64,000 nucleotides of DNA from Halorubrum sp. DM2 (GTDB lineage Archaea > Halobacteriota > Halobacteria > Halobacteriales > Haloferacaceae), in contig NZ_LR594487.1 of assembly GCF_901686465.1 (NCBI RefSeq), forward strand, positions 1,237,650 to 1,301,649. Reading direction: 5' to 3'. Shown here in pieces: positions 49,049 to 54,664 of the stretch. The notes beneath the pieces were generated by a model. That model had not been told where the DNA came from. It searched no databases and worked only from the letters and a program-made list of their open reading frames with translations. The translations under genes were made by a program, and so were the position numbers. Positions within the stretch are counted from its first letter, which is position 1; each line of letters starts with the position of its first letter.

Positions 49049-50413
49049 ATGGCCGTTCTAGACGATCTTTCCGGGTTCGAATTTGAGGATCTGATCGAGG
49101 ATGTCTTTCGGAACCTCGGCTACGAGAACGTCCGTCAGGCTGAGAAGACGGCAGACGAGGGCCGAGATGTCATCATGGAGGAGGTCGTCGACGGCACCCG
49201 ACGCGCGGTCATCGTCGAATGTGAACATACGGCGACGGTTGGGCGGCCAGTCGTTCAGAAGCTCCATTCGGCGATCTCGACGTTCGACTTCGACGGTCCC
49301 AAACGCGGGATGGTTGTCACGACCGGGCGGTTCACGAGTCCCGCGAGGGAGTATGCCGGCCGCCTCCAACAGAACGATGATCCGTATCCTATCGAGTTGC
49401 TTGACGGCCAAGACCTTCGGGAGATAGCCGATGAGATCGGCCTAGATCTCTACAATGGTCGCATCGAGATTCTCTGTGACGAGACTCTGCGGCCGTACGA
49501 CCCAGCGGCAGACGTCGACGCACCCGTTGTGGAGGCGTTCCGCGATATCGAGAATATCGAGGCGGCCGACCTTCCAGACTCATATTCGGCGGTGACGTTT
49601 CGCCCGGTCGTGGCAGTCACTGCGGACACGAACGCTGTCTTCGAGACATCGGTCGGCGTCATCCACCGGATAAACGACCGGACGCAGTTCGTGGTTCACG
49701 CTGAACGTGGAACCCCACAGGTCGTCGACGGAGATGTCGCGACACTGGTCACCGAGAATCTCCATACGAGGATCGAACTCGACTCTGAACAATTTGGCGA
49801 GGTGTTTGATGATGTTGAGGAGCACCGATTCGGGCAGACTCAGACCGAGTACAAGGAGTGGGCTGTCGAGCGGCTTCAAGACCACCACACGACGACGGTT
49901 ACCTACACCGGCGACAACAACGTCACGTACAACAAGACCTGCGAGCCGAACCGCTCGGACATCTCCGTCCAGTCGATCGAGCCAGTCTACCTCCCCGAGG
50001 TTCGGCACACGACCGACATTCAGGAGTACACCTACCCCTACGAGTACTACGCGGCAGGCCCCTCTCGAGTTACTACCGAGGACGGTATCCATCGCTGTGT
50101 CCACTGTGAGGCCAGCGGCGTCGACGAGCCGTACACGTACTGCCCCAACTGCGGGGCGATCGCCTGCGACAGCCACATCAAAACCGAGCGGCTTGACCAG
50201 GAGCCGGTTTGTACAGGCTGTGCGGTTACCGAGCGGTTCGCACTGAAGACGAAGTACTTCTACGACGAGGAGAACCTAGAGGCGTTCCGCGATGAGTACG
50301 CCGCTATGCCGCTCCACGAGAAGGCGATGGAGAACAAGATACTGGCCGGTGGGGGCGTGGTCGCGACGCTGCTGCTCGTCGTTGGACTACTCGTCATCAG
50401 CGGCATCATTTAG
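49049..50413 (+). CDS. Mrr-like restriction endonuclease with zinc finger and C-terminal TM
   Basis: A 454-residue protein. The N-terminal 110 residues are an Mrr-type nuclease domain (LSGFEFEDLIEDVFRNLGYE, DEGRDVIMEEVVDG, VIVECEHTATVGRPVVQKLH); the usual QxK Lys is replaced (ECE), which also occurs in haloarchaeal relatives. A zinc finger lies near 350-395 (CVHCEASG, CPNCGAIACDSH, CTGC). A C-terminal helix (GGGVVATLLLVVGLLVISGI) anchors it to the membrane. Membrane-tethered Mrr suggests a role against incoming DNA. Confidence 0.8.
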   Translation: MAVLDDLSGFEFEDLIEDVFRNLGYENVRQAEKTADEGRDVIMEEVVDGTRRAVIVECEHTATVGRPVVQKLHSAISTFDFDGPKRGMVVTTGRFTSPAREYAGRLQQNDDPYPIELLDGQDLREIADEIGLDLYNGRIEILCDETLRPYDPAADVDAPVVEAFRDIENIEAADLPDSYSAVTFRPVVAVTADTNAVFETSVGVIHRINDRTQFVVHAERGTPQVVDGDVATLVTENLHTRIELDSEQFGEVFDDVEEHRFGQTQTEYKEWAVERLQDHHTTTVTYTGDNNVTYNKTCEPNRSDISVQSIEPVYLPEVRHTTDIQEYTYPYEYYAAGPSRVTTEDGIHRCVHCEASGVDEPYTYCPNCGAIACDSHIKTERLDQEPVCTGCAVTERFALKTKYFYDEENLEAFRDEYAAMPLHEKAMENKILAGGGVVATLLLVVGLLVISGII

Positions 50414-50585
50414 AATCAGTTGTGACCTCACGCCTGCTCAGCAACCATTAAACCCGACTCCGTTCGTAGCAGTAATCGGTCATCCCTCGAAGTATCTCTA
50501 CATCAATGGCGGTCAATTCTCATGAACCAACTGTGGAGACGCGAAAGTCAATTAGTATTATAATACAGACTGTCAATATGATAGT

Positions 50586-51047
50586 ATGGGAACAGCAACC
50601 CGGAACCGATCCGGGGCCTCCAACGCTGACTATGAAAATGCGAAACGTGATTTAGCTGGTGCTGCGGGTGATAAAGATGCCGCCAAGGCCAGTGAAATCT
50701 ATTTCAAGATGATTCTGGCTGCTCAACCGAACGGCGCAGCTAAAGTTCCAGCTTACTTAGCGGTCCGATATGGCTCTGAATTCATTATCAAAAGCCACCA
50801 GAACGGTATTGAGTCCGCTACCAAGGATGTCGGTTCCTCAGTGGTAAAGGAGGTCGTTGCAGCTGGTGCCTCTGAAGCTGTCATTGAGCAAACTTCAAAA
50901 GAAGCGGCCACGCGGGGACTTGCAGAGGGATCTCAAGGCACAGACCGGGCCTTCTCAGGGTCCGCAGAACGAGCAATGGAGAGTGCGATGGGTGACATCA
51001 TGACTGAAGGAGCTGATGCTCTTGAACGACACCGAGATTCAAAATAA
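50586..51047 (+). CDS. QatB-like N-terminal component (starts Met-Gly-Thr)
   Basis: A 153-residue protein beginning MGTATRNRSGAS. The N-terminal MG(T)x pattern and Gly/Ser/Asn-rich opening resemble QatB proteins of the Qat defence system. The body is alanine-rich and helical (AAKVPAYLAVRYGSEFIIKS). It overlaps the next gene by 32 bp and is followed by a QatC-like enzyme. It lacks the second half expected for full-length QatB, which may be the next gene. The Qat link is inferred from context and N-terminal pattern, not from full-length homology. Confidence 0.55.
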   Translation: MGTATRNRSGASNADYENAKRDLAGAAGDKDAAKASEIYFKMILAAQPNGAAKVPAYLAVRYGSEFIIKSHQNGIESATKDVGSSVVKEVVAAGASEAVIEQTSKEAATRGLAEGSQGTDRAFSGSAERAMESAMGDIMTEGADALERHRDSK

Positions 51048-51426
51048 CATTGACGAATTTGTAGAGGCGCATGGTGTTGAAGGATTCTTCCGTGTGTATC
51101 TTCGGGAGTATCTGTTTCAACTGCTCAACAAAGAGATTGAAGCAGCTACAAACGATCCCGAGTCAGACTCCGCCCTCCAACTCCACTTCAGCCAAAACGT
51201 CGAGACTGATCAAGAGATAGAAGAATTTGAAGAGCAACTACGAGATCAGTGTGCTAATCGGGCAGATGAGCTCGTCGAAAAAATACAGGACCAGCCGGAA
51301 CTGGCTCCAATTTTCGAAGATGCCGATGTGGAGCTACTAGAACACGAGGATGTAGAGGAGATGATTCGGAATACCATGCACGAGATGATTAAGACATGGG
51401 GGGATGAAGATCTTGAAGGGAACTAA
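51016..51426 (+). CDS. QatB-like C-terminal component or accessory
   Basis: A 136-residue acidic, helical protein (FFRVYLREYLFQLLNKEIEA, EEFEEQLRDQCANRADELVE). No family is recognised with certainty, but the position between the MGT-starting gene and the QatC-like gene, and the helical type of sequence, fit the C-terminal part of QatB split off as a separate protein. It overlaps 50586-51047 by 32 bp and the QatC-like gene by 23 bp. Confidence 0.5.
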   Translation: MLLNDTEIQNNIDEFVEAHGVEGFFRVYLREYLFQLLNKEIEAATNDPESDSALQLHFSQNVETDQEIEEFEEQLRDQCANRADELVEKIQDQPELAPIFEDADVELLEHEDVEEMIRNTMHEMIKTWGDEDLEGN

Positions 51427-52855
51427 GCGATTCCTGATTAAGTCCGGAACTGGGTCGAATCTTAGCGAAGCAGACTCGGACTACACGATTGTCATCGACG
51501 ATTACCGAACTAAGACTGAAACGGAAGGCAGTCGTCTAATTAAGTATGAGAAGAAGGTTCTCAGCAACTTGTTCGGACAAAACCCTCCTCCAACAGTCAC
51601 GGCGTTGGTTGAGCTCGCACTCGGTACGTATGCTGCGGACCGTTTGGTGAAGCGAGGGCCTACTGGTGCGAAGGATGACGGCGAGGAAATGCTGAAATCA
51701 CGGCAGATTCAGATCCTGTACCCTGTTGTCGACGTAAAGAAATGGCAACCACTAGAGTCTGAATTGAACCACGCTGTTAGCTTCATCTCGCGTGACAACT
51801 TCCAGTATCGGTTCATTGATGCTATAGACGAGAATCAGTCTGTTAATGAGAACGATGGTATGCCTCGTGGTCAACTGCCTGAGGCTGATTCTGTCGTACT
51901 CTTTTCAGGCGGATTAGATAGTTTGGGTGGACGATTTCATCTCGCTGATGAAGGGCACAATCCACATTTTGTCAGCGTGGATCATGGCCGAAACGTCGGC
52001 CATCTAGTGCGGAATTTTGACCATCTCTTTGATGCTAATCTTACCTCAATAGGTGTCGACGAGGGGTTCTCTGCCTATGAAAATACGCAGTTTACTCGGT
52101 CATTCATGTACTTTGCTTTCGCCGCCGCTGTCGCGGTAGCACTCGATGTTGATGATATCTATGTTCCCGAGAATGGTGTCCTGTCGCGTTTCTCCTCGTT
52201 GGAAACTGGCTGGACAACGACTCGTACAGTACACCCATTGTTCATTAAAAGCTTGAACAGAATTTTTGAGGAACTATTACCGGACCGTCAAGTGAAAATC
52301 AGCAATCCCTTCATTGATTACACAAAGGGAGAAGTGGTCAACTGTATCCCAAATAAAGAGGATATTTTCTTTACTCGAACTTGTCCACATCCACGTGAAT
52401 TGTCACAAGGAAAGGACGCTGTGGGACACCCCTATAACTGCGGCGAGTGTATTCCTTGTCTTATCCGTATCATTGGTCTAGTGAACAGCGAACACGATAT
52501 ACAGCCAGACAGGTTGCTATTAGACAAGAACCATTTCATGGATCTTGACTTCTCGACCGTGAGTACAAAAACGATTGCTCAATCCGATCAGAATCGACAG
52601 TCCAGTTTGTCGGTGTTTTTGTTGGGCTTGAACGCTCAACTTTCGTTCGCGTACCGTATCCAGACTTTGACCCAAAAAGAACTGGCGTCATCCAACCCTG
52701 AGCTTCTTGACCCTGATATCTACGGGCTCTATGAGCGGTTTAGTAAAGAGATGTTCCGGACTGTTGAGTTCTTCGCCGCTGAAAACCCGACGCTGGAAGA
52801 CTACGTTACAGAGTTTCTTTCCTTAGACGAGGGGGAACTCGTCAGCCTAAGTTAG
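51404..52855 (+). CDS. QueC-like/QatC-like PP-loop enzyme
   Basis: A 483-residue protein. The PP-loop motif VVLFSGGLDSLGG is at about 165-177. The N-terminal 150 residues are an extra domain not found in housekeeping QueC. A zinc site as in QueC is seen in RTCPHPRELSQG and NCGECIPCLIR (about 325-355). Defence-linked QueC homologues (QatC, type IV CBASS Cap9) use a PP-loop reaction to modify a protein N-terminus, so the MGT-starting neighbour is the obvious substrate. QatA and QatD genes are absent here. Confidence 0.8.
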   Translation: MKILKGTKRFLIKSGTGSNLSEADSDYTIVIDDYRTKTETEGSRLIKYEKKVLSNLFGQNPPPTVTALVELALGTYAADRLVKRGPTGAKDDGEEMLKSRQIQILYPVVDVKKWQPLESELNHAVSFISRDNFQYRFIDAIDENQSVNENDGMPRGQLPEADSVVLFSGGLDSLGGRFHLADEGHNPHFVSVDHGRNVGHLVRNFDHLFDANLTSIGVDEGFSAYENTQFTRSFMYFAFAAAVAVALDVDDIYVPENGVLSRFSSLETGWTTTRTVHPLFIKSLNRIFEELLPDRQVKISNPFIDYTKGEVVNCIPNKEDIFFTRTCPHPRELSQGKDAVGHPYNCGECIPCLIRIIGLVNSEHDIQPDRLLLDKNHFMDLDFSTVSTKTIAQSDQNRQSSLSVFLLGLNAQLSFAYRIQTLTQKELASSNPELLDPDIYGLYERFSKEMFRTVEFFAAENPTLEDYVTEFLSLDEGELVSLS

Positions 52856-53046: not shown

Positions 53047-53538
53047 ATGGTCAGGAGAGTATTTTTCAGCTTTCACTATGAGCGCGATCATTGGCGAACC
53101 AATCCGGTACGGAACAGTTGGGTGACCCACGACAACCGAGAGGGAGCAGGGTATATTGATGCTGCTGAATGGGAAGAAATCAAGCGAGGGGGAGAAGATG
53201 CAATCGAACGATGGATCGATGAGCAGATTCACAACACTTCCGTCACTGTCGTCTTGATCGGCAGTGAAACCTACAACCGTGATTGGGTAAACCGCGAAAT
53301 TGAAAAAAGCTACAACCAGGGTAACGGCCTGCTCGGTATCTATATCCATAATATCGAAGACAAGAACGGAAGAACCGCTCGAAAAGAGAAAAATCCGCTT
53401 GATAAGTGGCACATCACCGAAAACGGACGGAAGAAGTATCTCTCTGACATCTTTGAAACCTATCATTGGAAACGTGACGACGGCTACAACAATATCGGAG
53501 GTTGGGTTGAGAAAGCTGCTCAATTAGCAGACCGGTAA
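53047..53538 (+). CDS. ThsB-like TIR domain protein 1
   Basis: A 163-residue TIR protein of the Thoeris ThsB type: VRRVFFSFHYERDHWRTNPV, the SVTVVLIGSETYNRDWVNRE segment with the likely catalytic Glu in NREIEKS, and IFETYHWKRDDGYNNIGGW near the C-terminus. Such TIR proteins make NAD-derived signals that activate an effector. No ThsA effector follows; instead a membrane protein starts 3 bp after the stop. An AT-rich promoter region precedes it (about 52950-53040). Confidence 0.85.
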   Translation: MVRRVFFSFHYERDHWRTNPVRNSWVTHDNREGAGYIDAAEWEEIKRGGEDAIERWIDEQIHNTSVTVVLIGSETYNRDWVNREIEKSYNQGNGLLGIYIHNIEDKNGRTARKEKNPLDKWHITENGRKKYLSDIFETYHWKRDDGYNNIGGWVEKAAQLADR

Positions 53539-53541
53539 TCT

Positions 53542-53973
53542 ATGTCGTCTGATAATGGCTTCCACCAAGAATTGGAGCACATACAGAACATTATCGATAG
53601 GCAGGCATCCAACTCATTCAAAATTAAGGGCTGGACAGTTACCTTGGTGGTTGTCGCACTTCTATTCCGGACGAATAACTTCCAACTATTCGCCGCTTTC
53701 ATTCCTCTCATTGGATTCTGGTACCTCGACGCCTATTACCTGAGACAGGAGCGGAAATTCCGGAAACTATTCGACTGGGTCCGGCTTAACCGGGACGATA
53801 CTGACGACTACCTATTCGACATGGATCCATCCCGGTTTGAGGACGATGTCGATGGAACAGTACAGCTGATGGCCACAAAATCCATGCTCACGTTCTACGG
53901 TACCATCGGAGGGCTACTGATTGTCTACACAGTAATCCTGATCTGTATCAACGGAGGAACCATCTTTGGCTAG
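53542..53973 (+). CDS. Three-TM membrane protein between two TIR genes
   Basis: A 143-residue protein. TM segments: about 30-45 (GWTVTLVVVALLF), 50-70 (LFAAFIPLIGFWYLDAYYL) and 118-138 (FYGTIGGLLIVYTVILICI). The loop LRQERKFRKLFDWVRLNRDD is basic and cytoplasmic. Similar proteins occur beside TIR or nucleotide-signal genes in prokaryotic defence loci, though none with this exact partner set is known to me. It overlaps the second TIR gene by 8 bp. A role as membrane effector or anchor is inferred. Confidence 0.75.
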   Translation: MSSDNGFHQELEHIQNIIDRQASNSFKIKGWTVTLVVVALLFRTNNFQLFAAFIPLIGFWYLDAYYLRQERKFRKLFDWVRLNRDDTDDYLFDMDPSRFEDDVDGTVQLMATKSMLTFYGTIGGLLIVYTVILICINGGTIFG

Positions 53974-54664
53974 AAGAGTCTTCTTCAGTTTCCACTACGG
54001 CCGAGATGTCTGGCGAGCGAACCAGGTTCGGCATAGCTGGGTGACCAGCAAAGACCGTGAAGCGGCTGGATTCTTCGATGCCGCAGAGCAGGAGACAATC
54101 AAACGGGCAACTGACGAAAAAATTCGCCATTGGATTAACGAACAACTTCAGGGAACATCTGTCACAGTCGTACTAATCGGTAATGAGACTGCGGAGAGGG
54201 ATTGGATTCACTACGAAATCAAGAAAAGCATCGAAAGAGGGAACGGTATCGTCGGTGTAAAAATACACTCTCTTAATGACAAAGAATCGAACACTGACTT
54301 CAGCGGGACAAACCCGTTGAAAAAGTTCGTTGTTGAGGAGGGCGACAAGGTGCGTACGCTATCCAGTATTTTTCCCACCTACGACTGGAAACGAGACAAC
54401 GGCAGAGAGAATATCGGCGAGTGGGCTGAGGAAGCAGCACAGACCGCTGAGAGTCTTTCCCGTGATCAGCAGAATTCGGTCCGACGCCGGGAGACAATCA
54501 GTGAAGGACTTAATCCAGACGCAGGAACTGTCATTTTCGTCCTCATCATCACTGCCATTCTAATTGACAAATACACCGATATTAACTTACGGGAGACGAT
54601 TGACCTCTCACAGCTCCAACAGCAGAATGACCAATCTGACCCGTTCTCAAAGTACGAGTTCTAG
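53966..54664 (+). CDS. ThsB-like TIR protein 2 with C-terminal TM helix
   Basis: A 232-residue TIR protein similar to 53047 (ARRVFFSFHYGRDVWRANQV, VTVVLIGNETAERDWIHYEI with the candidate catalytic Glu in YEIKKS). The start is TTG at 53966, preceded by an SD match GGAGGA (53953-53958); homology of the N-terminus to 53047 supports this choice. A C-terminal TM helix (GTVIFVLIITAILIDKY) is followed by a short tail. It may tether signalling to the membrane or be the effector. Confidence 0.82.
   Translation: MARRVFFSFHYGRDVWRANQVRHSWVTSKDREAAGFFDAAEQETIKRATDEKIRHWINEQLQGTSVTVVLIGNETAERDWIHYEIKKSIERGNGIVGVKIHSLNDKESNTDFSGTNPLKKFVVEEGDKVRTLSSIFPTYDWKRDNGRENIGEWAEEAAQTAESLSRDQQNSVRRRETISEGLNPDAGTVIFVLIITAILIDKYTDINLRETIDLSQLQQQNDQSDPFSKYEF

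Follow-up and report, generated by a model that had tools for sequence, protein, structure and literature searches.

Bacterial QatB and QatC alone defend against some phages, lambda among them (PMC13279940). The tail of QatB enters the active site of QatC, the N-terminal MGTS and Gly2 of QatB are essential, and the reaction of bacterial QatC is not yet reconstituted (PMC13279940). QatC has T278 and T280 in place of the Tyr and Asp residues with which QueC and Cap9 bind 7-carboxy-7-deazaguanine (CDG) (PMC13279940), and Asp63 of QatC is called catalytic (PMC13329287). The identity of the group that QatC attaches to QatB is debated. Three archaea-restricted clusters of the QueC family are left aside in PMC13329287.

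The window, which is the whole stretch of 64,000 nucleotides analysed here, is derived from the salt-loving archaeon Halorubrum sp. DM2 and contains three overlapping open reading frames, O1, O2 and a gene for a QatC-like enzyme, at 50586-52855 (Table 1). O1 and O2 overlap by 32 nt, and O2 and the QatC-like gene by 23 nt. Neither QatA nor QatD is detected by tblastn in the window or in 17 related loci, and the positive controls of this search are matched. This result bears out the sequence-only reading of the locus as a trio without these two genes. The trio therefore falls outside the four-gene definition of qatABCD.

Table 1. Features of the trio locus and its surroundings, in positions of the window
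Feature	Position	Strand	Description
Conserved upstream element, 36 bp	50550-50585	+	Onset of similarity to seven relatives
TATA-like box TTATAATA	50558-50565	+	-28 to -21 from the O1 ATG; conserved
O1	50586-51047	+	153 aa, Met-Gly-Thr start (MGTATRNRSGASN...); proposed glycine acceptor and analogue of the N-terminal half of QatB
O2	51016-51426	+	136 aa, helical; proposed analogue of the C-terminal half of QatB, docking on QatC
QatC-like enzyme	51404-52855	+	483 aa; QueC-family core with N- and C-terminal extensions
PP-loop SGGLDS, S168-S173	51905-51922	+	Corresponds to S156-S161 of P. aeruginosa QatC by alignment
T273-R274-T275	52220-52228	+	Corresponds to T278/T280 of QatC
Zinc site Cys327, Cys346, Cys349, Cys352	52382-52459	+	Aligned with C334/C354/C357/C360 of QatC
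TIR / 2-helix / TIR operon	53047-54664	+	PADLOC candidate PDC-M50A/B, Pfam matches; outside the cassette

The order O1-O2-QatC is found in 17 of 17 archaeal loci, never with QatA or QatD nearby. The trio is not a chance arrangement of open reading frames, because both the order and the overlaps are kept in the haloarchaeal, GTDB-contig and methanogen-side loci. Among 391 genomes of the class, 16 give a match of any strength, and 11 of these 16 carry the complete trio, one of them twice. GTDB contigs provide two further trio loci (Halapricum sp. CBA1109 and Halosimplex salinum) and also name Haloarcula vallismortis, Haloferax gibbonsii and Halorhabdus salina, in the last of which the QatC-like gene sits at a contig end. 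The plasmid records are those of Halolamina sp. CBA1230, Halobiforma lacisalsi and Natrinema sp. DC36. This architecture is shared by three methanogen-side genomes, whose O1 and O2 have diverged strongly. Identity is ~30% between haloarchaeal clades, and there is little detectable similarity to the methanogen-side O1 and O2. In a tree of 34 sequences, a moderately supported branch (76) sets the archaeal trio enzymes apart from the bacterial QatCs, and the support for the haloarchaeal group is 100. No relative is found in the viral contigs searched, and the phage records searched give just two distant Listeria phage records.

The similarity of the window to seven close relatives at the DNA level begins at -36 from the O1 ATG in six of them and at -37 in one, and in all seven pairwise comparisons it breaks off no more than 16 bp before or after the QatC stop. 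These borders indicate that the trio is a discrete cassette. The position of the TATA-like box, judged by haloarchaeal promoter spacing, suggests that a leaderless transcript starts at the O1 ATG, which would support the Met-Gly start of O1. The distribution of the trio is patchy, several copies are located on plasmids, and defence neighbours are frequent. Thus the trio is a real, conserved and mobile archaeal variant of the QatBC core, which moves between genomes as a unit. Two plasmids of the single strain Natrinema sp. DC36 carry near-identical trio copies (L024 and L025) with different neighbours. One close relative (L022, in G143:C2) has an in-frame stop in O2 with O1 and QatC intact. This stop suggests decay of that copy, and counts against the reading of the trio as a QatBC-type module.

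The QatC-like enzyme matches the PADLOC QatC model (5.8e-42), the solved QatC chains 9zee_B (2.9e-22) and 9vlk_A (1.5e-19), and the NCBIfam QatC model NF041925 (3.3e-45), the last with 154.7 bits, which is under the model's own cut-off of 280. The Ser, Asp and Ser residues of its PP-loop are invariant across the 34 QatCs compared, and the PP-loop and the zinc-site cysteines are conserved among the archaeal relatives. By these matches and residues, the 483-aa enzyme is a genuine QatC relative, in line with the sequence-only reading, which had noted its PP-loop and zinc site. The Tyr/Asp motif with which canonical QueC binds CDG is not present in the window enzyme, which has Thr273 and Thr275 instead, and both threonines are present in 14 of 14 archaeal trio QatCs. 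The equivalent of Asp63 is Ala (codon 67, 51602-51604) throughout the clade of the window, whereas Asp63 is invariant in 20 of 20 bacterial QatCs and in all more distant archaeal enzymes compared. From the alignment, this alanine is a discordant point, which counts against QatBC-type modification in this clade.

O1 begins with Met-Gly in all 17 complete loci. In the 12 aligned haloarchaeal sequences, the start MG[ST]A (MGTA or MGSA) is invariant, and 8 of the first 20 residues are invariant as compared with 17 of the other 133, indicating that the N-terminal tail is the most conserved part of O1. The methanogen-side O1s start with MGSQ or MGG. The idea that the Met-Gly start would suit a substrate of N-terminal modification remains plausible, given its conservation in 17/17 loci and the published precedent of QatB Gly2. 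O1 is without the conserved Pro16 and Trp18 of the QatB tail, which counts against the reading of the trio as a QatBC-type module, as does the want of detectable QatB homology in O1.

Neither O1 nor O2 matches any model of Pfam, PADLOC or NCBIfam above chance, and phmmer searches of the PDB with O1 and O2 do not retrieve QatB. For profile comparison, QatBs were gathered from 19 bacterial plasmid loci, of which 18 were used after start correction. By hhalign, O2 is collinear with positions 194-279 of the 282 of QatB (the last ~85 positions) with a score of 24.5, which rises to 27.5 when the methanogen O2s are added. The O2-QatB score is above all column shuffles and the reversal, and block shuffles reach it in 1/80 and 0/80 cases. 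The similarity is nevertheless downgraded, because 3 of 117 unrelated real haloarchaeal proteins score above 24.5 against QatB. The hhalign score of O1 against QatB is not above shuffles. When the haloarchaeal and methanogen O1s, which align only weakly with each other, are merged into one profile, its score against QatB is reached by 0/100 column shuffles and 7/80 block shuffles, and so exceeds the former but not clearly the latter.

The AlphaFold2 model of O2 is all-helical with moderate confidence (pLDDT 73), in support of its earlier description as a small helical protein. Foldseek finds no match of this model in the PDB at E<=0.001, in a library that may be without QatB structures. The model of O1 has a pLDDT of 44 and is unusable. 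Of the earlier proposal that QatB is split into two subunits (153 + 136 aa), the O2 part thus receives weak support from its modest C-terminal alignment, and the O1 part receives none from profile comparison. The gene order, the Met-Gly start and the O2 alignment together suggest, weakly and short of demonstrated homology, that O1 and O2 correspond to a split QatB.

By analogy with the bacterial pair, the trio is fairly probably a mobile, self-contained anti-virus module of QatBC type in archaea, which modifies an N-terminal glycine. We infer a defence function, modification of glycine and a docking role for O2. The trio is likely to work like QatBC, and most likely modifies the N-terminal glycine of O1, if the analogy holds. 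Removal of the initiator Met would free the N-terminal glycine of O1 for presentation to the QatC-like enzyme, and O2 would provide the docking half of a QatB-like partner made of two chains. With ATP, the enzyme would activate a small molecule that bears a carboxylate and would join it to the O1 glycine, and the modified complex may sense infection or serve as an effector.

A somewhat unlikely alternative is that the trio is a switch, which senses infection and licenses whatever effector adjoins it: a CD-NTase, a TIR pair, a restriction-endonuclease-like protein, an AAA+/DUF6414 pair or a membrane protein. The gene that follows QatC varies among loci, as this alternative would have it. It is a CD-NTase on the same strand, 61-68 bp away, in four loci (PADLOC Cyclase 9.6e-82 for the one scanned). 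In two loci, 19 bp away, it is a gene annotated in RefSeq as 'restriction endonuclease' (one) or its homologue (the other), and in Haloferax gibbonsii, at a distance of 96 bp, it codes for a membrane protein of 1034 aa. Immediately upstream of the trio, two distant loci (Halosimplex and one Natrinema plasmid) encode an IetA-like AAA+ ATPase together with a DUF6414 protein. However, ordinary clustering in defence islands would look the same, and independent events are few, because the islands of three of the four loci with a CD-NTase share ~95% identity. Moreover, Halolamina has no same-strand neighbour after QatC, and bacterial QatBC acts alone against some phages. The trio may still cooperate with an effector encoded beside it, because other defence genes fill this slot elsewhere. 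It is unlikely that a two-chain QatB-like acceptor, a carboxylate other than CDG on its glycine, and an interchangeable activation module for effectors including CD-NTases are all combined in the trio.

A dedicated system, in which modified O1 activates the TIR proteins encoded downstream, is very improbable. The TIR operon is adjacent to the trio in the window, on the same strand, and starts 191 bp past the cassette. However, DNA conservation does not extend past the QatC stop and leaves the TIR genes outside the conserved unit. The TIR operon matches PDC-M50 in its own right and has relatives on 80 plasmid records. The co-occurrence of trio and TIR genes that the sequence-only reading had put forward as a check is not seen, since TIR genes are beside no other trio copy among the loci compared. 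The TIR operon as dedicated effector was therefore rejected. In this operon, two TIR genes flank a gene for a small membrane-like protein, and both parts match the PADLOC candidate.

Other defence-related genes are located around the trio. Upstream of it in the window, 49049-50413 encodes a restriction endonuclease of Mrr type, which has a hydrophobic C-terminus and a part resembling a zinc ribbon. In two further loci, relatives of this endonuclease lie at a distance of 7-9 kb from the trio. In L018, L019 and L035, a second CD-NTase gene (313 aa, scanned in L018) is present on the opposite strand, convergent with the trio-linked one, and in L019 a gene for a Cap15-type receptor is beside it.

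Canonical QueC, QueD and QueE are all undetected in six trio-carrying genomes: G000, which is the genome of the window (99.9% complete, one contig), G126, G074, G317, G145 and G093. G318 has neither QueD nor QueE, and its QueC-like protein is divergent. The searches for QueD and QueE used single Haloferax proteins as queries. tRNA transglycosylase (TGT) and a COG1738-type preQ0 transporter are present in all seven hosts without QueD and QueE, and the pathway is intact in G112, G051, G143, G085 and G375. CDG synthesis is improbable in the seven hosts, because QueD and QueE (and canonical QueC) are absent and the preQ0 transporter and TGT are kept. On this basis, import of preQ0 probably sustains seven of the 12 haloarchaeal carriers, which are probably unable to make CDG themselves.

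This pattern also bears on the proposal that the QatC-like protein replaces the missing QueC as a metabolic enzyme and makes preQ0 for archaeosine. The genome of the window, with TGT and without canonical QueC, would suit such a role. However, canonical QueC is also present in five other trio-carrying haloarchaea, such an enzyme would find no CDG where QueD and QueE are absent too, a preQ0 transporter is present, and bacterial QatC does not complement queC (PMC13329287). This proposal, hardly credible on these grounds, was rejected. The least probable explanation, an ordinary Qat system whose QatA and QatD act in trans, has in its favour one KAP NTPase gene elsewhere in the genome of the window. 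But this gene is ~410 kb away, no KAP match is found in 8 of the 12 haloarchaea with the trio or in the two methanogen-side genomes tested, and neither QatA nor QatD lies near any trio.

If the trio modifies the O1 glycine as proposed, the substrate of its enzyme is probably not CDG made by the cell, because the pathway is absent and Thr-Thr replaces the CDG-binding residues (PMC13279940). Conversion of imported preQ0 may be an alternative source of CDG, and the substrate is possibly other than CDG. The presence of an intact QatC-type module in hosts without QueC, QueD and QueE speaks directly, on genomic grounds, against CDG of the cell's own making as the substrate. Such carriers thus address the debated identity of the group attached to QatB and provide a practical test system for the substrate of QatC. 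If the acceptor does consist of two chains, docking would be separated from modification, and the reaction could become easier to reconstitute. The shifting neighbours serve as natural experiments on the coupling partners of the QatBC core.

The trio resembles QatB-QatC of qatABCD from P. aeruginosa and E. coli in its QatC-type QueC enzyme with extensions and with the ATP, zinc and Thr-Thr residues, and in the small partner genes directly upstream with a Met-Gly-Thr/Ser start. Unlike qatABCD, it is archaeal and lacks QatA and QatD, its partner, which is made of two chains, resembles QatB weakly at best and is without the long Pro/Trp tail, and the enzyme of the window clade has Ala for Asp63. 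A plasmid of Bradyrhizobium japonicum USDA 123 (L112:2264-4891) has a gene for a hypothetical protein in the QatB position and a QatC-like gene. An ASCH-domain gene takes the position of QatD there, and the large first gene is unannotated. One haloarchaeal operon (L110:8217-11087; G318:C1, ~388-391 kb) encodes a 357-aa protein starting with MGGGGGGYDRPSDN, a PfkB/nucleoside deoxyribosyltransferase fusion and a 213-aa QueC-like protein. It matches the PfkB-linked 'Cluster 4' of PMC13329287, which suggests another N-terminal-glycine substrate. The PADLOC candidate PDC-M50, or ThsB-like (Thoeris) TIR operon, matches the genes adjacent to the trio and is a separate unit. As compared with type IV CBASS (Cap9 and CD-NTase), the trio enzyme is of QatC type (Thr-Thr) whereas Cap9 has Tyr/Asp, no CD-NTase is found beside the trio in the window, and the trio-adjacent CD-NTase of the relatives starts with MISRAKLN rather than MGGS, with no Cap10 identified. 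The trio shares with type IV CBASS a QueC-family enzyme that probably acts on the N-terminal glycine of a partner, and in four relatives it is likewise accompanied by a CD-NTase.
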